Assembly (NCBI RefSeq): GCF_016859285.1
Contig: NC_053416.1
Location: forward strand, 14,242,001-14,306,000
From: Xiphias gladius
Lineage: Eukaryota > Chordata > Actinopteri > Istiophoriformes > Xiphiidae
Length of the DNA stretch: 64,000 bases
Direction: 5' to 3'
A program made the position numbers and the translations under genes. Shown piece after piece: positions 33,522 through 64,000 of the stretch. The notes beneath the pieces were generated by a model that saw only the letters and a program-made list of their open reading frames with translations, ran no database searches and had not been told where the DNA came from. How positions within the stretch are numbered: the stretch's first letter is position 1; every line of letters starts with the position of its first letter.

Positions 33522-33665
33522 CCTACAGCCTCTGTAAAGTCTCCATCATCGGTACTTGCTCTGTATCAAAGCAAAAACAACATTGCACTTGCAATTGCTA
33601 ATTAATACTAATAATTACTGCCATTTTTTCCTCTCTTATAGGCTTGAATTTCACCTAGAAATCCC

Positions 33666-36600
33666 ATGGAGCAGGATGTGGAGAGCCCAGCCATCATCAG
33701 ACAGCCCAAGTTGCCAAAGCAGGCCCGTGAAGACCAGCCTAAACAGCTGGCAGAAATGGACAGGGCAAAGAAGATCCAGCGGTACGTCCAGAAAGATGGG
33801 AAGTGCAACGTCCATCACGGGAATGTTCGAGAGACATACCGGTATCTGACAGACATTTTCACCACGCTGGTAGACCTCAAATGGAGGTTCAACCTCTTCA
33901 TCTTCGTGTTGGTGTACACAGTGACATGGCTCTTCTTTGGCTTCATGTGGTGGCTTATTGCTTACCTCCGGGGTGATCTGGACCATATAGCAGACAATCA
34001 GTGGACTCCATGTGTCAATAACCTCAATGGGTTCGTATCAGCTTTTCTGTTCTCCATTGAGACCGAAACCACCATTGGTTATGGATATAGAGTCATCACG
34101 GACAAATGCCCCGAGGGGATAGTACTGCTTTTAGTTCAGTCAGTGCTGGGATCTATCGTGAATGCCTTCATGGTGGGTTGCATGTTTGTTAAGATCTCAC
34201 AGCCCAAGAAGCGAGCTGAGACACTAGTGTTTTCCACCAATGCGGTCATCTCAATGAGAGATGGGCGACTGTGCCTGATGTTCAGAGTCGGAGACCTCCG
34301 AAACTCACACATTGTGGAGGCTTCAATCAGGGCCAAGCTTATCAAGTCTAAGCAGACCAAGGAAGGGGAGTTCATCCCTTTGAACCAGACGGACATAAAT
34401 GTGGGTTACAACACGGGAGATGACAGGCTCTTCCTAGTGTCGCCACTCATCATCTGCCATGAGATAAATAAGAACAGCCCCTTCTGGGAGATCTCACAAG
34501 CCCACCTGGCCAAGGAGGAGTTGGAAATTGTTGTGATTCTGGAAGGGATGGTTGAGGCCACAGGTGAGTCCTCAGATTCATAAAGTCAGAGTCTTTCTGG
34601 CTGGATGGTATATTTGTGATGTTGTTAGGAATATATTACAATGATGTGTACAGCAGTTATTATTCAATGGATTTAACTATGTTGCACAATCAAAATATAG
34701 GATTACTGTACTTCGTTAACTCAGATTGACTCATTTTCAGTGAGCACAGAATTGTTTCATCATTACAATGCATGTCAAAAAGTAGTAACGTTTTTATTTT
34801 CTTTATTAATTTCATTCAATTTAACAAACAATACATTGACAGTTACAATATTTTTAGGGATGGCTATGTCGGTCAGTCCACCACATGGTCCAGACTGAAA
34901 TATCTCAATAACTATTAGATACATTGCCGTGTAATTTTATACAGACATCCATGGTCCCCAGAGGATGAATCATACTGGCTTTGGTGATCCCCTGACTTTT
35001 CCTCTAGCACCACCAGCAGATCAAAGTTTTCACTTATCCTGTGAAATATCCGCTAGATGGATTGGCACAAAATTTTGTACAGACATTCAGGGTTTAGCTT
35101 AAAGCACTTCTTTGTGGTTAAGTAAAGACTCTTAGTCTTGTTCTGTTCTAACGTAATTACTCTGATGTTTTCCTAACCTAAATCAAGTGACTTTATTAGC
35201 CTAGATTTACCCTTGCCTTTATCATCCTACAGTATATACAACACTAAGAGTTTATAGCCACACTAGCAGCCCTGGTAGGTTGCACTTAGACATGGCACTG
35301 GTTTAGCATGTGTAATATTCACAGTAGTCATTTTCTTAGGCAGGATGAATCCTACTTACATTCATGATCCTCTGTCACCATTTGGTTGACATTTGTAATT
35401 TTCAGTGAAACGTCTTGCCAAATATTGAATGGATTGCCCTGAAATTTGGTGCACACATTTGCATCTCCTAAGTACATTTACTCAAGTACTGTATGTAGGT
35501 GTAAATTTGAGGCACTTGTACGTGAGTTGAGTATTTTCATTCCATGCTACTCGATACTTCTACGTCACTGCATTTCAAAGTATTCCAATTATTTGACAGC
35601 TATTGTTACTAGTTACTTAGATTAAGATTTAACATACAAAGCAAATGCAGAGCCTCTAAAACATGATTAATTGTTATAGATTAAACAATAAATAGTGTAT
35701 AAAGTTAGAGCTGAAATATTTAGTCAATTCATCGATTAGTTAATCAACAGAAATGAAAACTAGTTTAATAACTGATAATTGTTGATGTCATTATTTATGC
35801 AACATTTCAAAGTTCCAGCTTCTCAAAAGTGGAATTTTGCTGATTTTCCTTGTCTTAAATTACAGTAAAAAGAATCATTTTTAGGTTTGACTATTGTTGA
35901 CAATGCTAATATGTTGTTGTTTAACACGTTTACAGTATTCATTAGCTTAGTTGACCACATTAACTATCTTAGTTTAGCGTGTTAGCATGCTAACATTTGC
36001 TAATTAGCACTAATACAGCTCAGCCTGATGGGATTGTCACTAATTTTGCAGGTATTTGGTCTTAAACTAACGTATCGAACGTATTGTTTACATATAGATA
36101 AACTGAACGAACGACTGACATGACCACGCAGCTAACAAGGCTAAATACTAAGGAAAAAAAAAAATCACCACCAGTGACCATTTTGCAGGAATTAGTAAAA
36201 CTCAGATTGGCTGGCAACAGGAACGTGCTCACATTTCTTCATATGCTGATCACGAGATTGTTCAAAGAGGGCCATGGAGGGAGAGACGAGAGGCAGAAAC
36301 ACTGCGTGAGGTGGGAGGGACAGGTGCGTCCAGGTGTTCGGAAATAACAGGAAGTTTAGTTATTGTAGTGTGGCTTGCTGATCAACCCACACAGTTCATG
36401 GAGGCAATTTAAAACAGTTAGCGCCTGATTGCCCCAATTTTGTGTCAGGATTCGTACTCCTTCTCAGAGTCGTAACTCAGTCAATCCTGAACACAGAGAC
36501 ATGATACACGTTTTTAGATTCAGTGTGTCTTACACTTGCCAAGGTTATCATTTTTTCTAATGTCCATTGCAAATAAACGTCCATAAATCTGCCTAGTAAT

Positions 36601-37454
36601 CATAGAAAAACAGTTTTTCCTTATAACTGAGAATTGTCATGTTTTAAGTTTTCTTCGGTATCAAAGTGATTCATTGATAGTTATATGTACATCCATGGAC
36701 AAAGTGCAAACAGGAACTGCTAATAGCTAATTCAATGTAATTTTTAATTCCGCCAATTTGAAAAAATGTAAATAAATATAGGCATAAAAAAAACAAACTG
36801 TAGTAGCATAGCTCACTGAATCCATGGCAACATTAATACTTATTATACTTATTCTTTTTGACATCCTCAGTGTGCACCACAAACAAAATTCATTCAAACC
36901 ATTGTACTAGGGCGGAGGCAGAAATCTGAGGGACAGAGATCTCAAAACCTGGACGAATAAAACCAAAACTATGGGTAGACACCATGAGAGGAAAGTGGGA
37001 AACATGTTTTTTTGTAATTTGGATAGAATGACCCTCTGAGGTGGCCCAAACTAAACTTTTCCATAAATGTTTTAATCCTGACTGTTGCATTGTGTCTCCA
37101 GGCATGACATGCCAGGCGAGGAGTTCATATGTCAGCAGGGAAATCAAGTGGGGCTACCGCTTCACACCAGTCCTGACACTGGAGGACGGCTTCTATGAGG
37201 TGGACTACAACAGTTTCCACGACATCTACGAAACCAACACACCCACCTGCAGTGCCAAAGAGCTTGCTGATATGACAAGCCGCACCCGCTTGCCCCTAAC
37301 CTGGTCGCTGGCCAGTAAGCTGAGTCAACAGGGGCTGCCAGAGTCTGAGCAAGAGGGTCAGGAGACAAAGACCAGCCTGGACAACCAGGGGAAGAGCCAG
37401 CAGACTGAGAGGAACGGGGACATTGCCAACATAGAGAGTGAGTCCAAAGTGTAG
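33666..37454 (+). CDS. kcnj6: G-protein-gated inward rectifier K+ channel GIRK2 (complete coding region)
   Basis: Kir3.2 forms tetrameric plasma-membrane potassium channels opened by G-beta-gamma, PIP2 and sodium. Coding exons 33666-34563 and 37102-37454 join in phase (GT/AG) to 416 aa; human GIRK2 has 423. The start is fixed by an in-frame TGA at 33645-33647, just after the acceptor at 33641, so the extra N-terminal residues of mammalian GIRK2 are not encoded by this exon. Seen: TM1 at about 75-98, selectivity filter TIGYG at 136-140, TM2 at about 152-176 with pore-lining Asn166 (human Asn184), Asp210 at the sodium site (human Asp228), the cytoplasmic Kir domain, and C-terminal ESKV, a class I PDZ ligand. 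[15 protein letters not shown] is close to the human GIRK2 tail. The intron position inside the Kir domain suits the family. No lesions. Confidence 0.97.
34564..37101 (+). other. Coding-region intron of kcnj6
   Basis: Begins GTGAGT and ends TCCAG. It holds dispersed repeat copies at about 34855-35060, 35355-35460 and 35930-36070 (GAGGATGAATC and GTTAGCATGCTAAC-type words), a fragment of the hAT-like family near 35465-35600, and a MITE near 35705-35880. No gene seen. Confidence 0.85.
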
Positions 37455-49994: not shown

Positions 49995-50611
49995 GATGCA
50001 GGACAACCTGGAATGAAAAATTCATCATCTGATTTATTAGTTTATTTGTATGCACAGCTGAACAGACTGATCTCTACACTGCTGCCTGCACAGTGTATTT
50101 ATAATGCTCTCAGATTATAGGCACTATGCCTAATGCACAAACCTCATAATTTAGACAAAAAGCAGCCTTTCTATATCATGTCAGTGAATATTAATGTGTC
50201 TGCTGGAAATGAAACTAGACTGTTCTATTTGTGTTGCTCATTATATTGCATTCTAATTTAAAATATGTGAATATTTGTTTATACATTTTCCGTGTGTGTA
50301 CCATGAAGGGGGCTACAACCACATTTCATTACGCAACCCTGTATTGTATAATGACTATAAAGGTGAACCTTGAACCTTAATGAACCTTTCAAGGTGGTAA
50401 ATAAAGAGCCACTTCAATGATAAGTATTCCAATTCCATATAGTTCAGAGACTTGCAAGAGACGGATCATGAAAAGACTGGTCATAACAGAAGTAGGAAGG
50501 GTCATGATATCCTGACTTTTAGTATCACGCTCCAAAAACTACATTTCCCCTGATGCAAGTCTTTTAAGTAAATTTGTGATGTTTTGATTCATTCATCTTC
50601 CTTCCCTGAGA

Positions 50612-50905
50612 GGGAATATTGGACTCCCATGTCTTAATTATTTGACAGAAAGAAAAACAGAAGCAAGTTGATAAAAGACAACTCTGCTAATTATAAACTC
50701 AAAGAATGAAGATCCTAAAATTTGATCTTTTTTTCTTTTCCCTCTACAAGACAAAGCTACAAGATGGGGGATGGAGGAACTGTCATTGTAGACATTCTAA
50801 TTTGCAATGATTCAGATTATGTTGGCACAAATGATATGGAGCAAACCTGGGATTTCTGGGGCCCCTGGACAGCTGGAAATCTAGCCTTGTCTGACTCTAT
50901 ACTGA
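50612..50905. repeat. Dispersed repeat, copy 1 (near-identical to 53549-53845)
   Basis: Starts GAGAGGGAATATTGGACT and runs through ATTTGATCTTTTTTTCTTTT to GGGGCCCCTGGAC. It differs from the second copy by only a few bases. A diverged relative lies at about 22075-22240. The shared open frames are a by-product of this high identity. Confidence 0.85.
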
Positions 50906-51308
50906 GGGGGGGCTTATCTTACAACAGATATTCCCTCATTCTGTGTTGTGATGATGATGATGATGATGGAGAGCAAAATTTCCCAGAGATGTTCAATTTA
51001 GTCTAGATCTGGTGACTGTGAAGGCCACAGCATCCTACTCACATCATTTTAATACACTTTGGACCATTCAGTGAGCCCTCCTGCCCCGTGTAGGGACAGT
51101 AACCACGATTCCTTGTGTGTCTCGACTCATTCAGTCAAGGTCTTCCTTTAATTTGTCGACTGTCTGTAGGTCAGCTAGCTTCAAGTGCGGCGGCGTTTCA
51201 CTCACCACTAACAGAGAAGTGATTCACCACGAAAATGTACGCTGACAGTCTGATCACTAACGTTGTACCTTAACATAGCCCGTACCTGGTGTCTGCTTCG
51301 GTACTCAC

Positions 51309-51420
51309 CGGTTTTGTTTCCACCGACCTGAAGCAGGAACAGACCTCTTCTGCGTGATGACCAATCCGTCAAGGTCAAGACACTGACGTCTGCTCTACGG
51401 CACCGCGATAGTCTGGCGAC
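51309..51420 (-). other. Candidate non-coding first exon of rabgef1
   Basis: A strong donor on the minus strand (AAAACCG|GTGAGTACC, exon end 51309) lies about 1.3 kb upstream of the acceptor of the first coding exon, in a less AT-rich stretch with CpGs (51180-51660). The 5' limit is a guess. Confidence 0.35.
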
Positions 51421-52640
51421 TACATTATTATCAAGAGATTAGACATTAGAGGCATTTGTTCAATTTACGATCCCAAAGAAGACAAACTGTTTCGAAAGCA
51501 GAGGATCGTTTTTGCCAAGGAAATCTGATTAAAGTCAGTAGTCTCTTTACTTCGGCAAAAGGGACTAATTTTCCAGGATGGGCCAATGTCCTCACGTAGC
51601 AAACCGCAAAGCGAGGGTCATGTGACCGACGGAGATCACCGAGTTAGTACGGAGCAGTACGGCGGGGTCTTTTTCTTTACTTTATTTATTCGTTTTTATT
51701 ATTACTGCAAATAACAACAACAACAAACGAAGACAGGTATTGATACAGATGATCATACATCACAATGACACACAGTGGCCAAGAGTGTTACATATAAGTA
51801 TTTTGAAATACACACATTTCATAAGGTAAGTACCGCATCATTTGCATGAAGGTTGGACATTTAGGCACTGACTTGTATTTCCATTTGTCTTCATGGAACC
51901 ACTACAAGTTTTAAATCCCAAAATCTTTCAACAACACTACCTGTTACTTGATAGTCATTGTTATTTATTTTCTTATCAGTGTGACATCATTATTGTTGGC
52001 GGGGCTGAAAGGCAAAGGGAGTTTGGTTTGCATGTGTAGAAGGGAAAGTTAACTGAAAAAAAAAATGAAAAGTGACATATAGGGATGTGTGTTTTTGCCA
52101 ACAATGATATAGCCTGGATTTAACATAGCATGGAGTAATTAGTGAATCTATATGCCAGTCTGTTGAGGAAAAAATTAACTGACATCTCGCCAAAAGTTGT
52201 GAGAATGGGAATAGATCTTTGCACTTCTTTGTAAAAAAAAAACAAAACAAAAAAAAAGACCTCAGCGTTAATACCAAGGAATGACTCTAAAAGACACCTC
52301 TTTTATCTTATTATTAATCCAAAATTGATGAGATATGGGATTATTCAGGTAAGATATTACAAATTACACAAAGACATAGTCTTTCTGGAATTAAGTACAA
52401 ATATTGTGGTTAGCCTATTGGATTTTTTTTTTTTCTCGAGGAGAAACAGATATGACCAAGAGGATCTGCAGAAAGATATGCTGCTGGGTGCAAAGTCATG
52501 ATCAAAATCCCCAATGAATCCAATTACATTAAATCAGTTAACAAACCGTGAATCCTGCTATTTCTACACTGTGATAGTATTACTTTTATATGATCTGAAT
52601 ACTTCTACCGCTCAAAGATATCAAGCTAAACAAACATAAG
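51421..52640. other. Intergenic DNA between rabgef1 and the U6 array
   Basis: AT-rich, with A runs near 52227-52255 and poly-T near 52424-52433. No gene seen. Confidence 0.5.
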
Positions 52641-53238
52641 CAAAACTATCTACAATACAGGTCAGACTGTTACTGTGAAAGTGTACACGTAATATCAGAT
52701 AGTACTAGCAAAATAGTCACATGTCATGATAGAGGAATGTAGTTATAATTATTATTACTGTTATTTAAACCATGTCAATGCTATAACCTTCACGGTGGGT
52801 GATGGGGACCTCTGTTGGTGACTTTATAGATGCTCTTTATTTTGGCAGGGAATATGGAATAGGGGTAAGAGTTTGCATAGTATTAATTAATGCTATTAAA
52901 CTAAAATAATATCACCATGTATCACACTAACTAACTTTACCTTAATCTGAAGCTATATGCAATTCATCCGCGAAATGCCTCGTTCTCCTGATAGTAAAGT
53001 TCGCAAACATTTCATTTTTATTTTGACGGTTTACTTCGACTTCCGGTTCACCCTCTCCATTGATTTCAGTCACAACGCAAGGAAAAAATTGGAAAATAAA
53101 CATTACACCGCACCAAAAAAAACCTGCAGTTTCTTACACAATGTTACGGACACTGGAAAAACGGGCCAGTTTCTCAGTTTTTTTCGGTTTTTGACGTGAA
53201 AACCGACTATAGTTAAAATCTTGAAAAAGATATCTCTG

Positions 53239-53288
53239 AAAAATGAGGAACGCTTCACGAATTTGCGTGTCATCCTTGCGCAGGGGCC

Positions 53289-53329
<41 letters not shown>

Positions 53330-53344
53330 TTATCGAAATAACAC
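53239..53344 (-). ncRNA. U6 snRNA (variant 5' stem), copy 1
   Basis: 106 nt on the minus strand. It contains the U6 core: AUAUACUAAAAUUGGAACGA, the ACAGAGA box that pairs with the 5' splice site, the AGC triad (GAUUAGCAUGG) and the internal stem-loop (CCCCUGCGCAAGGAUGACAC, then GCAAAUUCGUGAAGCGUUCC), all as in vertebrate U6. The 5' end is GUGUUAU-UUCG-AUAACAC, a perfect 7-bp stem. The usual vertebrate stem is GUGCU(C/U)GC-UUCG-GCAGCAC with a bulge. The 3' end is UUCCUCAUUUUU, with T5 at 53239-53243 as the Pol III stop. TATA and PSE are in place, so it is probably expressed. Confidence 0.88.
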
Positions 53345-53412
53345 GACCTTACCCTGTCGCTGTTCGGTTAATATAGGGGGTCGGGTCCGGAATGCACCAC
53401 AGTCATGGTGAC
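53345..53412 (-). promoter_or_regulatory. Pol III snRNA promoter of U6 copy 1 (PSE + TATA)
   Basis: TATATTA at 53369-53375 lies at -25 to -31. A PSE-like element, GTCACCATGACTGTGGTGCA, at 53393-53412 lies at -49 to -68. Both positions are those expected of vertebrate U6 genes. Further up, at about -133 to -146, TGCAATTCCC replaces the element that lies near -235 in copies 2-4. Confidence 0.75.
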
Positions 53413-53548
53413 GGCTGCACAGAGGCAATAAGACAGGAAAGTGACTCTACGTGGCTTTATCAAGGCAGAGGACCGACGGGAATTGCATTTAGCAGCTAAA
53501 GAGCCAGATATTTCCCTCAGGAATTGGTAGAGACCAAAAACGGAGCTA

Positions 53549-53845
53549 AGAGAGAGGGAATATTGGACTTCCATGTCTTAATTATTTGACAGAAAGAAAA
53601 ACAGAAGCAAGTTGATAAAAGACAACTCTGCTAATTATAAACTCAAAGAATGAAGATCCTAAAATTTGATCTTTTTTTCTTTTCCCTCTACAAGACAAAG
53701 CTACAAGATGGGGGGTGGAGGAACTGTCATTGTAGACATTCTAATTTGCAATGATTCAGATTATGTTGGCACAAATGATATGGAGCAAACCTGGGATTTC
53801 TGGGGCCCCTGGACGAGTGGAAATTTAGCCTTGTCTGACTCTATA
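53549..53845. repeat. Dispersed repeat, copy 2 (near-identical to 50612-50905)
   Basis: Same sequence as at 50612, sitting between U6 units 1 and 2. Its left neighbour (53490-53548, AGCCAGATATTTCCCTCAGG and on) is a common fish repeat end. Confidence 0.85.
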
Positions 53846-54335
53846 CTGGAGTCAGATAAGAGCCAGATATTTCTTTCACGGTGGGTGATGGGGACCTCTG
53901 TTGGTGACTTTATAGATGCTCTTCATTTGCGCAGGGGATATGGAATAGGGGTAAGAGTTTGCACAGTATTAATTAATGCCATTCGACTAAAATTAAATCA
54001 CCATGTATCACACTAACTAACTTTACCTTAATCTGATGCTATATGCAATTCATCCGCGAAATGCCTCGTTCTCCTGATAGTAAAGTTCGCAAACATTTCA
54101 TTTTTATTTTGACGGTTTACTTTGACTTCCGGTTCACCCTCTCCATTGATTTCAGTCACATGTGGCCTTCACAACGCAAGGAAAAAATTGGAAAATAAAC
54201 ATTACACCGCACCAAAAAACCTGCAGTTTCTTACACAATGTTACGGACACTGGAAAAATGGGCCAGTTTCTTAGTTTTTTTCGGTTTTTGACGTGAAAAC
54301 CGACTATAGTTAAAATCTTGAAAAAGATATCTCTG

Positions 54336-54385
54336 AAAAATGAGGAACGCTTCACGAATTTGCGTGTCATCCTTGCGCAGGGGCC

Positions 54386-54426
<41 letters not shown>

Positions 54427-54441
54427 TTATCGAAATAACAC
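54336..54441 (-). ncRNA. U6 snRNA (variant 5' stem), copy 2
   Basis: Identical to copy 1 over the 106 nt as far as I can read, including the altered 5' stem, ACAGAGA, AGC triad, internal stem-loop and T5 end (54336-54340). Confidence 0.88.
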
Positions 54442-54680
54442 GACCTTACTCTGTCGCTGTTCGGTGCATATATGGGGTCGGGTCCGGAATGCACCACAGT
54501 CATGGTGACGGCTTCACAGAGGCAATAAGGCAGGAAAGTGACTCTACGTGGCTTTATCAAGGCCTAAAACAACAGTATACAGAGGTCTGACTGCTGTGTT
54601 GTGAACTTATTGTGACTCGCAGTGACTCGGTCCAGGTTCTGTTTCCCGTGCTCAGGAGTTTGAGGATAGACGGGAATTGT
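54442..54680 (-). promoter_or_regulatory. Promoter of U6 copy 2 (distal element, PSE, TATA)
   Basis: The TATA region at about 54466-54472 is altered (TATATGC instead of TATATTA). The PSE is at 54490-54509, again -49 to -68. ACAATTCCCG at 54671-54680, about -230 to -240, resembles the core of a ZNF143/Staf site (ACTACAATTCCC type) at the distance of a distal enhancer; this last reading is inference. Confidence 0.65.
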
Positions 54681-55185
54681 ATGCAGTGAGCCTTTACCTC
54701 AGACACCAAGGATTGGTTTGCAGCTGGCGGGAGAACGAAAGGTTAACTCCCAGCGACCCCTTCAGCCCTCCTCTCAGAGGCACTACCCCACCTCCCTCAA
54801 AGCATTTTCATGTCTTCAAATATGATTTAGTTTTTCTCCATCAGGGGTTTAGACTACAAAATCCTGCATACTGTCAGTTGTATGCCAGATTAAAAACTAA
54901 ATGTACATTTACCCCTAATTGTTAACAAAACCCATCCCGATGTGTGCCAAAAACAACACAATTCCATCTAAATAAAATATACAACTAAAAATAATGAACC
55001 TACATAAGCAAAAAGAAGCAAAACTGATAATAAAATTAACAGCCAAACTAAATCCAACCAAAACAAATGAAACCCTGTTTGTCCAGGGTGTCCCTAAATC
55101 TGTGTATCCCTGCCTGTGTCAGGGACCGCAGGAGAGGGAGCTGCACAGGTGTGTGATGTCTGGGTAGAGCTGCAGAAAACTGGTT

Positions 55186-55906
55186 GTGCCAACATTACAC
55201 ATTATTGATTATAAATTACTAACATGCTTTTTATCACTGTTGTTTGTTAATTGTGCTATTTTAAATAAATAGGGATAATGCCCTGTCTAAGTGTTTCCCA
55301 GCAGAAAGTCTTTACTCTGAACTGTTTATCACCGTCACCTTCCAATGTTCAAGTCAGACTCAGGGCCACACTAACCCACTACTGGGTCTGGGCAACAACT
55401 GGGCTGTGGATCTCAACTGAACACACAACCCAATTTTCCCAGAGTCCCAGAAACTTCACAATTTTTTCAGAGCTTGAATGCGCAGCCTCGGATTTCCTGT
55501 GTGTCAGCTTGTGATAATTTGAACAAGCGAAACGTCATTTAAAAATATGCACCATGTGAGAATAATATCACTTGATATTTTTATGTTAAGAGTGACAACA
55601 TGAAAACGACGCGACAAAGTGAAGGAGGTTGTAGTGATGAACCTGCAGCTCCCCTCGGCTGTACGCAGCTTATATTGAGTTTCAGCTCATTGTTTATATG
55701 TCTGGGCCACAACTTTACTGTTTTGATTCACTCTCACTAGCGTTGTTTTTGGCTGCAGGAGGCAGCTGTTTCCAGTGAAAAAGCTCTAAAAACCCACTGT
55801 ACACTACCTGCTCAGCTGCAAACAGGAGACAGACACAATAAGCGACCAGCTGCTGAACATAGTTGAGCATTTAGCAACTAAAGAGATATTTCTAAAGATA
55901 TTTCCT
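55186..55906. other. Spacer between U6 units 2 and 3 with a dispersed repeat
   Basis: The stretch about 55660-55906 (GTGAAAAAGCTCTAAAAACC, CACTGTACACTACCTG and on) is a copy of a repeat seen again at 63765-64000. The frame at 55278-55514 is not recognisable as a gene. Confidence 0.55.
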
Positions 55907-56502
55907 TCACGGTGGGTGATGTGGACCTCTGTTGGTGACTTTACAGATGCTCTTCATTTGCGCAGGGGATATGGAATAGGGGTAAGAGTTTGCACAGTAT
56001 TAATTAATGCCATTCGACTAAAATTAAATCACTATGTATCACACTAACTAGCTAACTTTACCTTAATCTGATGCTATATGCAATTCATCTGCGAAATGCC
56101 TCGTTCTCCTGATAGTAAAGTTCGCAAACATTTCATTTTTATTTTGACGGTTTACTTTGACTTCCGGTTCACCCTCTCCATTGATTTCAGTCACATGTGG
56201 CCTTCACAACGCAAGGAAAAAATTGGAAAATAAACATTACACCGCACCAAAAAAAATTCCGTTTCTTACACAATGTTACGGACACTGGAAAAAATTGGAA
56301 AAACGGGCCATTTTCTTCGTTTTTGGTTTTTGACGTGAAAACGGATTAAAGTTAAATATCTTGTTTTGATGCAGTTTTTTTCTCAGAAGGTTTGAAACAG
56401 ACACTTCTGACTCGTGCCGCTGCGCTGCAGCACCGCCGCCGGTGGCGCTGTCTCACCCAAATAAAAAGTTGAACAGGACAAAAATGCTACTTTATATCTC
56501 TG

Positions 56503-56552
56503 AAAAATGAGGAACGCTTCACGAATTTGCGTGTCATCCTTGCGCAGGGGCC

Positions 56553-56593
<41 letters not shown>

Positions 56594-56608
56594 TTATCGA
56601 AATAACAC
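56503..56608 (-). ncRNA. U6 snRNA (variant 5' stem), copy 3
   Basis: Same 106-nt sequence as copies 1, 2 and 4, with the T5 end at 56503-56507. The inserted 130 bp lies after the terminator and should not disturb it. Confidence 0.88.
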
Positions 56609-56854
56609 GACCTTACTATGTCGCTGTTCGGTTAATATAGGGGGTCGGGTCCGGAATGCACCACAGTCATGGTGACGGCTGCACCGAGGCAATAAGGCAG
56701 GAAAGTGACTCTACGTGGCTTTATCAAGGAAGAAATCAACAGTATACAGAGTTTTGGCTGCTGTGTTGTGAACCCTGTACTTATCGTGGCTCACAGTGAC
56801 TCGGTCTAGGTTCTGTTTCCCGTGCTCAGGAGTTTGAGGACCGACGGGAATTGT
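56609..56854 (-). promoter_or_regulatory. Promoter of U6 copy 3 (distal element, PSE, TATA)
   Basis: TATATTA at about 56633-56639 (-25 to -31), PSE at 56657-56676 (-49 to -68), and the distal ACAATTCCCG word at about 56845-56854 (-237 to -246). Confidence 0.7.
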
Positions 56855-57538
56855 ATGCAGTGAGCCTTTACCTCAGACACCAATGATTGGTTTGCAGCTG
56901 GCGGGAGAACAAAAGGTTAACTCCCAGCGTCCCCTTCAGCCCTCCTCTCAGAGGCACTACCCCGCCTCCCTCCCGGAAGTACCAGCGTGGCCGGTTTTAC
57001 GTTGTTAAATCAGAGCCTGGGCAGAAACGAGCCTGTACGAACATAAACATTAGATATAAATAGTCCAAATAAAAACGACTAAAACCCCGCTTCTTCCTCT
57101 ACCGGCTGCTTCTTTTGTTTTCAATCATTAAATTCAATTGCAGTTCCACAAACTCACCACCAGGTGTCAGTGTATAACCGGTCTGCGGGGCGCTGTGTGG
57201 GACAGGGAGAGAAACAGAGTACCCAACATTAGTGACAAAAACTGGATTTATATACATGCATATGTCCTTGGTGTGAATTGTTGTATTGTTTAACAATAAT
57301 TTATGCAAGGAACTCGCCAAACCGTGTTCTATTGATACAATGTGATAATTTAGAGTCTTGTCGTTTTTCCACAAAGTATTTTCATGTCTTCAAATATGAT
57401 TTAGTTTTTCTCCATCAGGGGACTACAAAATCCGGCATACAACTGACACCCAGTACCGTTGTCACCGCTGTTCACCTTACAGTCTGCTATCAGAGGACGC
57501 AGCCAGAAGACCACAGTGAGTGTATTTACAGAGCACAT

Positions 57539-57620
57539 GCACTCAGTTGTCAGTTTATTAGGAACACCTAGTTAAAACTAATGCAGTCTAATTCAACAGT
57601 CCTGTTCAGATTTTGCTGAA
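57539..57620. mobile_element. Left part of a split MITE
   Basis: CACTCAGTTGTCAGTTTATT, then GGAACACCTAG, then CTAATGCAGTCTAATTCAAC matches the left part of the MITE at 16642. Similarity stops at GCTGAAACTG near 57620. The continuation of that family (AGAGGTGTT and on) resumes at 59484. Confidence 0.75.
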
Positions 57621-58315
57621 ACTGTTTTTTTTCCTCTTTTTAAAAAATCAAAGTTCAGATACATCACATATATTCAGACTATTTTATCTAAATATTTTAT
57701 CTAAAATACAGGTCAGACTGTTACTGTGAAAGTGTACACGTAATATCATATAGTACTAGCAAAAATAGTCACATGTCATGATACAGGAATGTAGTTATAA
57801 TTATTATTACTGTTATTTAAACCATGTCAATGCTATAACCCTCACGGTGGGTGATGGGGACCTCTGTTGGTGACTTTATAGATACTCATTATTTGGGCAG
57901 GGAATATGGAATAGGGGTAAGAGTTTGCAAAGTATTAATTAATGCAATTCGACTAAAATTAAATCACTATGTATCACACTAACTAGCTAACTTTACCTTA
58001 ATCTGAAGCTATATGCAATTCATCCGCGAAATGCCTCGTTCTCCTGATAGTAAAGTTCGCAAACAATTCATTTTTATTTTGACGGTTTACTTCGACTTCC
58101 GGTCCACCCTCTCCATTGATTTCAGTCACATGTGGCCTTCACAACGCAAGGAAAAAATTGGAAAATAAACATTACACCGCACCCAAAAAAACTGCCGTTT
58201 CTTACACAATGTTATTGACACTGGAAAAAATTGGAAAAAACGGGCCAGTTTCTTCGTTTTTGGTTTTTGACGTGAAAACCGACTATAGTTAAATATCTTG
58301 AAAAATCTAACTATG

Positions 58316-58365
58316 AAAAATGAGGAACGCTTCACGAATTTGCGTGTCATCCTTGCGCAGGGGCC

Positions 58366-58406
<41 letters not shown>

Positions 58407-58421
58407 TTATCGAAATAACAC
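58316..58421 (-). ncRNA. U6 snRNA (variant 5' stem), copy 4
   Basis: Same 106-nt sequence as the other copies, with the T5 end at 58316-58320. After the terminator its 3' flank differs slightly from copies 1-3. Confidence 0.88.
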
Positions 58422-58660
58422 GACCTTACTATGTCGCTGTTCGGTTAATATAGGGGGTCGGGTCCGGAATGCACCACAGTCATGGTGACGGCTGCACAGA
58501 GGCAATAAGGCAGGAAAGTGACTCTAAGTGGCTTTATCAAGGCCTAAAACAACAGTATACAGAGTTTTGGCTGCTGTGTTGTGAACTTATTGTGACTCGC
58601 AGTGACTCGGTCCAGGTTCTGTTTCCCGTGCTCAGGAGTTTGAAGACCGACGGGAATTGT
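58422..58660 (-). promoter_or_regulatory. Promoter of U6 copy 4 (distal element, PSE, TATA)
   Basis: TATATTA at 58446-58452 (-25 to -31), PSE at 58470-58489 (-49 to -68), and the distal ACAATTCCCG word at 58651-58660 (-230 to -239). Confidence 0.7.
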
Positions 58661-59483
58661 ATGCAGTGAGCCTTTACCTCAGACACCAAGGATTGGTTTG
58701 CAGCTGGCGGGAGAACGAAAGGTTAACTCCCAGCGACCCCTTCAGCCCTCCTCTCAGAGGCACTACCCCACCTCCCTCAAAGCATTTTCATGTCTTCAAA
58801 TATGATTTAGTTTTTCTCCATCAGGGGTTTAGACTACAAAATCCTGCATACTGTCAGTTGTATGCCAGATTAAAAACTAAATGTACATTTACCCCTAATT
58901 GTTAACAAAACCCATCCCGATGTGTGCCAAAAACAACACAATTCCATCTAAATAAAATATACAACTAGAAGCAATGAACCAACATAAGCAAAAAGAAGCA
59001 AAACTAATAATAAAATTAACAGTCAAACTAAACCAAACCAAAACAAATGAAACCCTGTTTGTCCAGGGTGTCCCTAAATCTGTGTATCCCTGCCTGTGTC
59101 AGGGACCGCAGGAGAGGGAGCTGCACAGGTGTGTGATGTCTGGGTAGAGCTGCAGAAAAGTGGCTGTGCCAACCCTCAAGCCTCAAAGATGTCTTGTACA
59201 AATAGACGATTGGGATTGATTTATATATCTTTCTTTTTTTATGTTTTGGTTTGTTTTGGGGTTTTTTTGTTTTTTTTTAATGAATTTGACAAAGGTTTTA
59301 TGCTCCACAGTGACCAGCGGATGTGATTGAATTGTGAGAATAGCTTTTCTATACATGGTTATTGGAACTTGTTAAATATTTGGTGATTTCTTTTACTCTG
59401 AATGCGTCCTTTTAGGGTGCAATGTCGATTAAGTTAAGTTCTCTGTTCTTGTAATTTTTTATTATTGTTTTGTGTGCAATGAA

Positions 59484-59605
59484 TTAAAGAGGTGTTGATG
59501 CAACTGTGTGAGCATTTTGGATGCTGTGGTCTGTGGTGCTTTTGAGCTGTATTGCATTATGTTGATAGGTGTTCCCATTATTTTGTCCACCTCATTCAAA
59601 TCCAA
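59484..59605. mobile_element. Right part of a split MITE
   Basis: AGAGGTGTTGATGCAACTGT, then TGAGCTGTATTGCATTA, then GTCCACCTCATT matches the middle and right part of the MITE at 16642-17050. The far terminal repeat is missing. Confidence 0.65.
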
Positions 59606-61468
59606 TGAGTGACCCAACACTGACCAAAGTGCTTTGATGGAACAATGGGACTATTGGACTGATGATTGCAAACAAATCAAAATACATAACTAAGTAAGAG
59701 GATATGAGTCTTTTTTTTTTTTTTTTTAAAAGCACAGAACATCTGGATAAAATCATAACATATTCTTGTTATGATGAACAGCGCCTCAATGATAAGAAAC
59801 CAGTAGTCAGAAAACACAAGACTAAGAATAAAGACTAAATACACAAAGACCCAAAATGATTGTAATGTGATTTAAAAATTTAATAAGTACAGTTTAGTCA
59901 TTTTTATATGATCATGTCTCATGTATGATAATGTCGTTATTTATTAAGTGCTCAACTGTACTGCGCTTTGGGCTAAATTAAAGACTGATTGTTACCCATA
60001 CTACTTTCATCCAATATTATTTGTAGAGTAAATAAAGTGCTTTTTTTCCTATTTTGAACACCTCAGTCATATTACAGTAACAGGTAATCTGTAATGTATC
60101 CACAAACTCCAATTTTGCCAAATTTAATGTCAATAAATACTCAGAACCGCTCCATGCAGGATTGAATGGTACATAACTTGACGCTGTATGTTTTCTACAC
60201 ATTGGTGAGCATACACATTTAACATCGATCCAGTCGGATCATTTGGAGCATAGGAGCTGTCTTCAGGATGTTTCCTGAACTCTATCAAAGATCTCAAGAC
60301 TTTTAAAGCAGAGCTTCAAACCCAATATCTGGATATTCCAAATCAATTCTGTAATCATGTAAGCGGAACAATTACACACAGGATTTACTGTAGTGGGAGT
60401 ACCGTGCACAGCCTGAAAATGCAACCAAATGCAACAGCCTTATAAATTAATTTACCAAACAGAAGCAAGTTCTATAACTTGTAGCCCACAGATATGACTG
60501 TCTCCTAAAAAATGTAAATTTTACTCTGCCCCTGGGAGCAGATTTGGGATGCTGCGTGATGAATATGGCATGCTTTATTCATGTTGGAGTAATGTAAACT
60601 AATATTTTAATTTATTTTGTTTTTTTTTTTTTTTTCTGCTTTTTTGCTTTATTATTTTTGACTCTTACTTGAGCCATTACCAGAGTTAATGAAAGCTGAG
60701 ATTGCTGACGGTCCGGCAAAGTAAATCTGCCCCTCATAGTGAGCTGACTGCTTGCTTATTGACATTAAGGTTAATGTTCAGTGGTTGTTTCAAAGTCTAA
60801 ATGCCAATTTGATTACAAAAAGTTAGATGAATTCATTTTCATTTTAGGCTGCACTGACTCTGAAATGGATGATTACTATACACTTGCTGTCATGTTGATA
60901 TTTATTTCAGTAATTTCCATTTTTATTCTCTTTCTGACAAAAGCTGACACAATATCACCACTTCTGAAATAGTGATTTTTCGCGGGACAGTTTTTTGTGC
61001 TATTGAACCACATGTTAAATAAATCCTGCACTTTCAACCTTTGACAGGAGAGGTAGAATATGTTTATGTAAACAGACTGTGGTCCAGATGTCCTGCAGCT
61101 CTTTTCCACAGGCGAAGGCAATCAAACAGTCCATTGGTGACGTACCCCTGATGAATTGAAGTCAAGCAGTCAAGCAGTGTCATGCTGAAGGAGTTTCTTC
61201 CACAACTTGGCAACACAAAAAGCTGTTATGTTCCTGTAACTACTGTATGTAATAGTACTACTGTGTATAAACCCTTGTTTCACTTCAGCTAATGCGTTAT
61301 GCATTTCTATTTAAACCCTTGAGTGCTTCGTTGGACTGGTCATGCTGATAACGTCATTCTGACTGGGGCAAATAAACACACAGGGAGTCAGAATCGCAGA
61401 TAACAAGCAGACCTGTTTCACACACATACACATATCAACACACACTGGTTAGACATACAGATATAGCC
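59606..61468. other. Intergenic DNA before the last gene
   Basis: AT-rich. It holds poly-T runs near 59711-59726 and 60621-60635, and a right-end copy of the fold-back element at about 61081-61215. No gene seen; the frame at 60781-60972 is not recognisable. Confidence 0.5.
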
Positions 61469-63267
61469 ATGATCCTCTTGGGTCGCAGTCTGTGTCTTCC
61501 TTCTCCAGCCACTGTCCAGGAGCTGTTCTCTGTGGCTCGGGATGCCAACATCATCCCTGATATCTCCTTGGATCCGGTCCTCACCACCTTCTTGTCAATG
61601 GACTCCTCTGCAGCGCTGCAGCATCAGTATGCCTTCTTACAGCAGAGCATGAGCAGGGAGCAGCAGACTGAATTCAGCCTCAGCCTGACTGGACAGCTGG
61701 GCGGCAGCAGCAGGGTCACCTATGGAGGAGTAGGGGTTGTTGCTCTGGCTCTGTCTATGCTTTTTGACCAGGTTGCCCAACAAGTAGGTCAAACTTTTGT
61801 CTAGTGTTTGTATGTCTTCATTGAATACTGGTCTCTGCAATTCTCAAAAAGCTCAGAACACGCAATTTTCTGAAATCAGCTGAAGCCTGTACTGACTTTG
61901 GTGATCCTGTGACTTTTCTTCAAGCACCACATTGAGGCTGACATTTTGTTTTCAGAGAATTTTGTTTTAGAGACTACTTCGGTTTATCTCTCTAGTTTGG
62001 TTTTATTTTCCACCTCACACAGCCCCCACTGTAGCTGTAGACTCCTTATTCCTGTTACCAGGTAACTACAGCGAAAGTAAGATCCTGACAGGATGGGGCA
62101 AAGGACGACTTTGTTTTCTTTTCTTTACTCGATTTTTACAATATACACAAAGTGAGGGCCTAGAGGGCCCTTACTGTTCAAATATCATATGCCATCTTCT
62201 TCCACAAGGATGTTTCAAGTTCAGAATTTTGGTACTGAATGCTCTACTGAAACTTTTGTTACATGTTAAACAAAAACCGTGCTATATCTCAGGTCTGTCG
62301 CAGACTGAAATATCTTAGAAACTATTTGATAGATTCCGAATTTTGTACAGACATTCATGTTTCCCAGAAGAAGAGTCCTCACCTCAGGGTTAATCATAAT
62401 AACTCTAGTGCCATCATCAAGTCCAGTACTTTGGTTTATGCCCAAATAACTGCAAAACCAAGGACATTCCCATCAGCCTCAGCTTTACTTTGTATTCAGT
62501 ACTAATTAGCTAATGTTAGCATGCTAACACACTAAACTAAGATGGTGAACATGGTAAGCATTACACCTGCTAAACATTAGCACGTTAGCATTGTTACTGA
62601 ACATGTGCTATCATGCTATCATGTTAGAATTTAGCTCAAAGTACCACTGTCTATTTACAGCCTCACAGAATGGCTAGCATGGCAGTAGACTCTTAGTCTT
62701 GTTTTTTCTGCTCTTGCCCTTCCTAAAGCATATTTCCCACTATTTCAGTTGTATATTCGACCCGGCTATGTACAGGAGAATTTTTCTATACAGACAAACT
62801 AATGCATTCATTACACTGGATCAGTTTGTTTGTGACCTGAGCCCAAAGGCTACTGTTTGAATCGCTTGAAAATTTGGTTTCACAGGCTTGCTGTGTAACC
62901 AAGGTCTCTATTAGATCTTTCTTTTCTGTTACCTCAACAGGTCCGAATGCAAAGATCAACAGAGAGGGACCTATCAACTCAGAGCTCACAGGCTAAGAGG
63001 ATTTTTGGCATCAGCACCTCTTCAAGAATTGGCTTGATTATCCAGAGCTACCTCAGTCTGATCCCTGGGATTGCCAACAACCAGGAGAAGATGGCTGAGA
63101 CTACAGAGCTCTATGACAACTGGCTGAAACTTGAGCTAATTGACCATTACGAGAGGATGACCACTAAGAAGAGAATGAGCTCAGTGTCCATGCAGCAGTG
63201 GTTGACAGGAGCTGCATTTCATCTGCACATGAGAATCCACCAGGTCGGGACACAGAAAAAAGCTTGA
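61469..63267 (+). CDS. Uncharacterised two-exon protein gene
   Basis: I do not recognise this protein. Exon 1, 61469-61783 (donor CAACAA|GTAGGT), and exon 2, 62941-63267 (acceptor after CCTCAACAG), join in phase to 213 aa. Features: N-terminal MILLGRSLCLPSPATVQELF, an acidic and polar middle, a hydrophobic stretch at about 85-100 (YGGVGVVALALSMLF), then a mostly helical-looking, basic second half with KRIFGISTSSRIGLIIQSYL and ending GAAFHLHMRIHQVGTQKKA. No signal peptide is clear. Both exons read as real protein without repeats. A possible donor at 63244 (CAG|GTCGGG) means the true 3' end could lie in further exons past the window. An AATAAA at 63691-63696 could end the transcript if not. Confidence 0.7.
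61784..62940 (+). other. Intron of the uncharacterised gene
   Basis: GTAGGT...CAACAG. It holds a copy of the dispersed repeat at about 61880-61960 and 62285-62660 (GAAATATCTTAGAAACTATT, GCATGCTAACACACTAAACT). Confidence 0.65.
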
Positions 63268-63764
63268 TGTTAAAAAGGATGTTTTTGAAAAAAATCCCTG
63301 CTACAGTATAAATATCTGCTTTGTACATTACATGTACTCTGTAAAAAAAGGATTGGTTGGGTCCCTCATTAACAAAATAAGGTAAGGATTGTATAAAAAT
63401 GATTTGCAGAAGAGTGTCAATACTATGTTAAAGACATACCTAACTTGATTACATGTTTTGGAGATGTAAATAGCCTTCATCAAAGTTGTAAAGATAGATT
63501 TTTTTCCAGTGGAATTTCAGAAGTGCTTGAAAACCAAACAAACATGGATGCCTCACATCAGTCAAAGAATTTCATTCAATGTAATTACATCCAAATTTAA
63601 TATATATGGTGTTATGCTCTCAATACCAAGTGCTTTAACCCGTCTGTTTTCGGCATCTAAAGCGACTACAGTTGATATTTTTATAACTGTAATAAATGTG
63701 AAAGGTGTCACTAGGGATGAATCTACAGAGAATTATCACCTGAATCTGCATCTCATGTCTGCTT

Positions 63765-64000
63765 TGTGGAGCTATATAATGAGTTGCAGCTCCTTGTTTT
63801 TCTGTTCAGCTCACTACTTTCCTGTTTTAGAACACTCTCACCACTCTCAAAGAGTTGTTCTTGGTTGCAGCAGGCACCTGTTTTCAGTGAAAAAGCTCTA
63901 AAAATTCACTGTACACTGCCTGATCAGCACCAAACGTCGGACACCATTAGCAACTAGCTGGTGTGCATATTGGAGTATTTAGCAAGTAAAAAGCCAGATA
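63765..64000. repeat. Dispersed repeat running off the right edge
   Basis: Matches 55660-55906 (GTGAAAAAGCTCTAAAAATT, CACTGTACACTGCCTG) and ends the window with AAAAAGCCAGATA, the same word that precedes U6 unit 2. Confidence 0.7.

Follow-up and report, generated by a model that had tools for sequence, protein, structure and literature searches.

U6 genes with a rewritten 5′ stem, and a second type of U6 and U4, in the genome of Xiphias gladius

Four U6 genes and their surroundings

The stretch of DNA analysed here, hereafter the window, comprises 64,000 nucleotides of the fish Xiphias gladius (RefSeq assembly GCF_016859285.1, contig NC_053416.1, positions 14,242,001 to 14,306,000), and it carries four U6 small nuclear RNA (snRNA) genes of 106 nt each, all on the minus strand, which share an unusual 5′ stem-loop and are called type A (U6-A) below (Table 1). 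RF00026 is the sole Rfam family to reach gathering level in the window, its four matches each spanning model positions 1-105 at 116.1 bits (cut-off 44), and a laxer scan of window positions 50000-64000 returned no additional U6 fragments. The 5′ stem reads GUGUUAU-UUCG-AUAACAC in every copy; the corresponding 18-base hairpin (GTGTTATTTCGATAACAC) has four mismatch-free occurrences in the window, where shuffled sequence predicts 0.07 matches with three mismatches allowed. Family and hairpin matches thus bear out the initial annotation, which had reported four minus-strand U6 copies with this stem and an unchanged catalytic core.

Canonical vertebrate and human U6 served for comparison. Against these, three stem pairs are altered on both arms (C-G to U-A, G-C to A-U and C-G to U-A), the bulged base of the canonical stem is lost, and the pair closing the UUCG loop is U-A instead of C-G, so that both arms have changed together and the bulge is gone, as first described. 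With random changes at the six partner bases, Watson-Crick pairing would survive at each of the three pairs together in 3.8% of trials. The type A RNA is a full-length match to vertebrate U6, its body, from ACAUAUAC to GCGUUCC, shows no differences from the human RNA, and the ACAGAGA box, the AGC triad and the sequence of the internal stem-loop are retained in alignments to both the model and human U6, whereas the 3′ tail differs. Between phyla it is the 5′ stem of U6 that varies, with compensatory changes, as in fly, worm and plants; type A shows the same kind of compensated change, but within the vertebrates, which generally share one U6 5′ stem sequence.

The hairpin matters because MePCE caps U6, among the most conserved of vertebrate RNAs, at this 5′ structure, and capping of mammalian U6 reportedly requires the stem-loop together with AUAUAC (title of Singh et al. 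1990, cited in PMC10083321). Both parts are kept in form by type A, where the hairpin precedes AUAUAC in sequence and in predicted fold although the stem letters are unlike the usual ones; in a fold of the whole RNA the seven stem pairs form with probability 0.81-1.0. Retention of AUAUAC had been noted at the outset and stands, AUAUAA being the form in another type of U6 described below (U6-B).

The genes appear to be equipped for transcription. A T-run terminator is intact, and a gene-external TATA box and proximal sequence element (PSE) can be recognised by sequence, the PSE-like element being the same in all four window copies (Table 1). In support of the PSE-like element, CACCGTGACT is present at a fifth type A copy (see below) and upstream of four of the five U4-A genes inspected. 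The layout resembles that of a working tilapia U6 promoter (TU6), for which the TATA box is reported at −31 to −23, the PSE at −46 to −76 and the SPH element (SphI postoctamer homology) at −233 to −254 (PMC8041756): the window copies have TATA at −31, a PSE-like element at −67 and an SPH-like element at about −236 in three copies and at −139 in the fourth, copy 1, where the DNA further upstream differs. The SPH-like element scores 12/19 against an SPH consensus, a score reached by 17 of 500 shuffled versions of one stretch, and is weak when taken alone.

The four genes lie in an irregular array of duplicated units with one U6 gene each and start-to-start spacings of 1097, 2167 and 1813. Blocks of 300 nt around the copies are 86, 91 and 95% identical to a reference copy; the genes are identical at 106 of 106 positions, and their flanks differ at 9-34 positions in the 200 nt upstream and at 2-77 downstream. 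Because they lie inside duplicated DNA, the copies do not count as four independent observations. A fifth type A copy on another chromosome (C10:27120036; handles such as C10 denote sequences of the assembly) is identical to the window genes over nt 1-105, whereas 57-66 of about 200 aligned upstream positions differ, with gaps besides, and the downstream 200 nt are barely alignable. An identical gene with diverged flanks on another chromosome points to a long-standing presence of the rewritten stem in this genome or to its spread by gene conversion. With TATA and PSE-like elements in place and this fifth copy, the window genes look functional rather than pseudogenic, in keeping with the initial annotation, and judged by sequence they are probably working. 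The accompanying argument for selection fares less evenly: the compensatory stem change and the promoters stand, while the identity of the four copies owes most to recent tandem duplication.

Table 1. Features of the U6 array, in window coordinates; offsets are relative to the start of the adjoining U6 gene
Feature	Position	Strand	Remarks
Irregular array; each duplicated unit with one U6 gene	52782..58778		repeat families D1, D2, D4
U6 snRNA gene, type A, copy 1	53239..53344	-	RF00026, 116.1 bits; hairpin 53327-53344; 106 nt
TATA box, copy 1	53370..53375	-	-31 to -26
PSE-like TCACCATGACTGTGGTGC, copy 1	53394..53411	-	-67 to -50
SPH-like ATTCCCGTC, copy 1	53475..53483	-	-139 to -131
U6 snRNA gene, type A, copy 2	54336..54441	-	RF00026, 116.1 bits; hairpin 54424-54441; 106 nt
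TATA box, copy 2	54467..54472	-	-31 to -26
PSE-like, copy 2	54491..54508	-	-67 to -50
SPH-like ATTCCCGTC, copy 2	54669..54677	-	-236 to -228
U6 snRNA gene, type A, copy 3	56503..56608	-	RF00026, 116.1 bits; hairpin 56591-56608; 106 nt
TATA box, copy 3	56634..56639	-	-31 to -26
PSE-like, copy 3	56658..56675	-	-67 to -50
SPH-like ATTCCCGTC, copy 3	56843..56851	-	-243 to -235
U6 snRNA gene, type A, copy 4	58316..58421	-	RF00026, 116.1 bits; hairpin 58404-58421; 106 nt
TATA box, copy 4	58447..58452	-	-31 to -26
PSE-like, copy 4	58471..58488	-	-67 to -50
SPH-like ATTCCCGTC, copy 4	58649..58657	-	-236 to -228

U6 and U4 genes across the assembly

The window's own 690.8 Mb assembly was searched for U6 genes by two routes, which agree on the same nine. 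The U6 model gave ten matches, nine of them above cut-off, and a 22-base U6 core allowing up to two mismatches was found at 12 places, nine exact and three with two mismatches. The nine genes with an intact core are the four of the window, the one on C10 with the same stem, and four copies of U6-B. An ordinary vertebrate body is thus accompanied by the rewritten stem in five of five genes, and the usual vertebrate stem has no match in the assembly at up to two mismatches. At three mismatches that stem matches seven places (against one match for a reversed control pattern), namely the four U6-B genes and another three places absent from the core search results. Two of the two-mismatch core matches, on C1 and at C10:27.61M, were rejected as U6 since no U6 surrounds them; the third belongs to a decayed U6 at C21:32498314-32498406 (38.8 bits, below cut-off). 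This decayed copy has a type-B-like body and a stem nearer the usual vertebrate one, and is perhaps a fossil of the U6-B ancestor. Outside the assembly, the variant stem has no matches in the collections viral_contigs and genome_contigs, which also lack any match to an animal U6, and its letters went unmentioned in the open main text of PMC, a scope that leaves out sequence databases and supplements.

U6-B forms a four-copy array at C10:15633671-15636432, with an 886-bp unit; as the units are 98% alike, the uniformity of these copies does not speak for selection. The U6-B stem, GUACUUGC-UUAG-GCAGUAC, has retained the bulge; relative to the usual stem, one pair is altered on both arms and one loop base is different. 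AUAUAA follows this stem where type A has AUAUAC. The telestem carries one extra U per strand, opposite each other (GGAUACG with CGUUUCC), and six pairs remain. Within the stretch that pairs with U4, CUGCGCAAGGAU has become CUGCGAAAGGAT (as RNA, CUGCGAAAGGAU). Structural work reportedly identifies the changed C as the free base of the GNR(N)A pentaloop in the internal stem-loop, so that it can change without harming the active form.

Because U6-B is altered where it pairs with U4, a matching U4 is predicted if U6-B works, and such a U4 is present. The U4 model gave 40 matches in the assembly (42 of 45577 candidates scored); the typing covers the 30 read as genes, and one further match, on C10, is a decayed copy. 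Eleven of the 30 are of type A (U4-A), starting with A(G/A)CTTTGCGCAG (two with G and nine with A), and 19 of type B (U4-B), 18 with ATCCTTTCGCAG and one with ATCCTTTTGCAG, so that both RNAs occur in two sequence types, five A and four B for U6. U4 arrays of both types lie on C1258, C1259, C1261, C1262 and C8. The main U4-B end, that of 18 of the 19 copies, pairs with U6-B at 12 of 12 positions, a full match that random triple changes of the U4-A 12-mer reach in 36 of 200000 trials. U6-A in turn meets U4-A of its own genome over stems I and II, stem II consisting of ten consecutive pairs. When partners are swapped, U4-A with U6-B leaves a mismatch in mid-stretch and U4-B with U6-A leaves one mismatch; predicted stem II energies are −23.8 (A with A), −26.7 (B with B), −17.3 (U4-A with U6-B) and −22.2 kcal/mol (U4-B with U6-A). 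Summed over both sets, the cognate combinations come out 11.0 kcal/mol better than the swapped ones, or 10.6 when the 5′ domains are co-folded.

The rewritten stem as the probable standard in U6 of this fish

To the extent that the assembly is complete, this gene census makes the rewritten stem the standard one for U6 in this fish, the very outcome that the initial annotation had named as the one that would undo its proposal. We consider it very likely that the window genes are the ordinary working U6 of Xiphias gladius with a paired stem that has drifted, and that U6-B and U4-B are the better candidates for a specialised role. RNA polymerase III would transcribe the type A genes from the PSE and TATA box, and the RNA would keep the vertebrate catalytic, U4-pairing and U2-pairing body unchanged and pair with the ordinary U4, U4-A. 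In an ancestor of the lineage the capping hairpin would have drifted from a GC-rich stem with a bulge to a bulge-free, AU-rich stem of seven pairs, the two arms changing together, and this drift may have been tolerated because what the capping enzyme probably requires is a hairpin at the 5′ end with AUAUAC after it, and not a given stem sequence. U6-B and U4-B would be a second pair that changed together.

Several points weigh against this interpretation. The predicted type A hairpin is weaker than the canonical one by 3.4 kcal/mol (−4.4 versus −7.8 kcal/mol), so that capping or stability may be affected; the likeness of the five copies could be maintained by gene conversion instead of selection; the U6 model search scored only 48 of 67418 candidates, though the exact-core search agrees with it; and arrays of U4, U2 and U5 lie partly on small contigs, so that the assembly may lack U6 arrays as well. 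The last of these opens the way to a different account, in which canonical U6 resides in tandem arrays that were not assembled, as snRNA arrays assemble poorly, and type A is a minor variant. We regard this as unlikely, given that neither the core pattern (up to two mismatches) nor the stem pattern (up to three) uncovers a canonical copy or fragment, and that two types of U6 at three loci did assemble.

The proposal put forward with the first description, a selected variant U6 that accompanies a standard U6 and serves a tissue-specific or capping-altered pool, appears very unlikely for the window genes. A division of labour is conceivable in a genome that holds two U6 types, and type A could then be the specialised one, but type A has the ordinary body and AUAUAC, no standard-stem U6 was found beside it in the assembly, and it is in U6-B that body, capping element and U4 pairing deviate. 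As U6-A keeps hairpin and AUAUAC and U6-B carries AUAUAA, the candidate for altered capping is U6-B and not the window genes; more generally, the specialised U6 is more likely to be U6-B. We give scarcely any credence to the view that local duplication has spread the window copies as U6-derived repeats or pseudogenes: they do lie in duplicated units, yet all 106 nt are unchanged in four of four copies despite differing flanks, the T-run terminator is intact, promoter elements are in place and a fifth copy sits on another chromosome.

If type A is indeed the ordinary U6 of this fish, a vertebrate with a rewritten, weaker hairpin in its standard U6 offers a natural experiment on the requirements of capping and stability. 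In practical terms, type A RNA would not be matched by primers or probes that anneal to the 5′ end of human U6 in its usual form.

A possible second U4/U6 set, and other loci

It is possible, at somewhat less than even odds, that the two U4/U6 sets prefer their own partners and form separately assembled maternal and somatic spliceosome pools. The change in U6-B falls at a variable loop position of the catalytic internal stem-loop and could therefore alter U4 pairing while leaving catalysis untouched; the 5′ capping hairpins and telestems would set the two sets further apart. In the pairing models, discrimination is one-sided, U6-B rejecting U4-A strongly and U6-A rejecting U4-B weakly, so that nearly the whole cognate advantage is due to U6-B. 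Counting against two sets, U4-B pairs with U6-A in stem II only 1.6 kcal/mol less well than U4-A does, which is all that U6-A alone discriminates; the second base of U4-A is mismatched with both U6 types; one of the 19 U4-B copies carries a further change that gives a G-U pair; and no SPH-like element was found by the search pattern upstream of the three of four U6-B copies inspected.

Zebrafish is reportedly endowed with maternal and somatic snRNA types. It carries its maternal U1 and U6 genes on chromosome 4 and the somatic ones elsewhere (PMC11075544, citing Pagano et al. 2020), which parallels the presence of two U6 types in one fish genome here. Another report states that zebrafish Dada-U6 elements target U6 nt 65-70 and sit in GCGAAA or GCGCAA (PMC3706591); these target variants show the same difference as U6-B and U6-A in Xiphias gladius, U6-B having GCGAAA. 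By this analogy the two U6 types may be old among fishes, and U6-B with U4-B would probably be the maternal, specialised set, leaving U6-A of the window as the general or somatic U6. Damage by, or escape from, Dada transposons was set aside as an explanation of the stem, for the window genes are intact at nt 65-70 and the stem lies elsewhere. The second set poses a testable question, namely whether the U4/U6 variants form separate di-snRNPs (small nuclear ribonucleoproteins) in egg and soma. A full second set that includes U1 and U2 was likewise set aside, the 5′ functional parts being the same in the copies read (6 of 42 U1 and 7 of 46 U2 matches).

U1 and U2 genes are interleaved in two groups of clusters, one at C7:26.307-26.312M and on C1205, the other at C7:29.226-29.244M and on C806 and C678. 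The U1 and U2 copies read encode nearly the same RNA, and some array copies carry small deletions that may be assembly errors. For U5 there are 38 matches in the assembly, 26 of them in an array on contig C31 at a spacing of about 0.9 kb. Elsewhere in the window, an inward-rectifier potassium channel with IRK and IRK_C domains is represented by two exons at positions 33648-37451 on the plus strand, and its split coding region is reminiscent of kcnj13.

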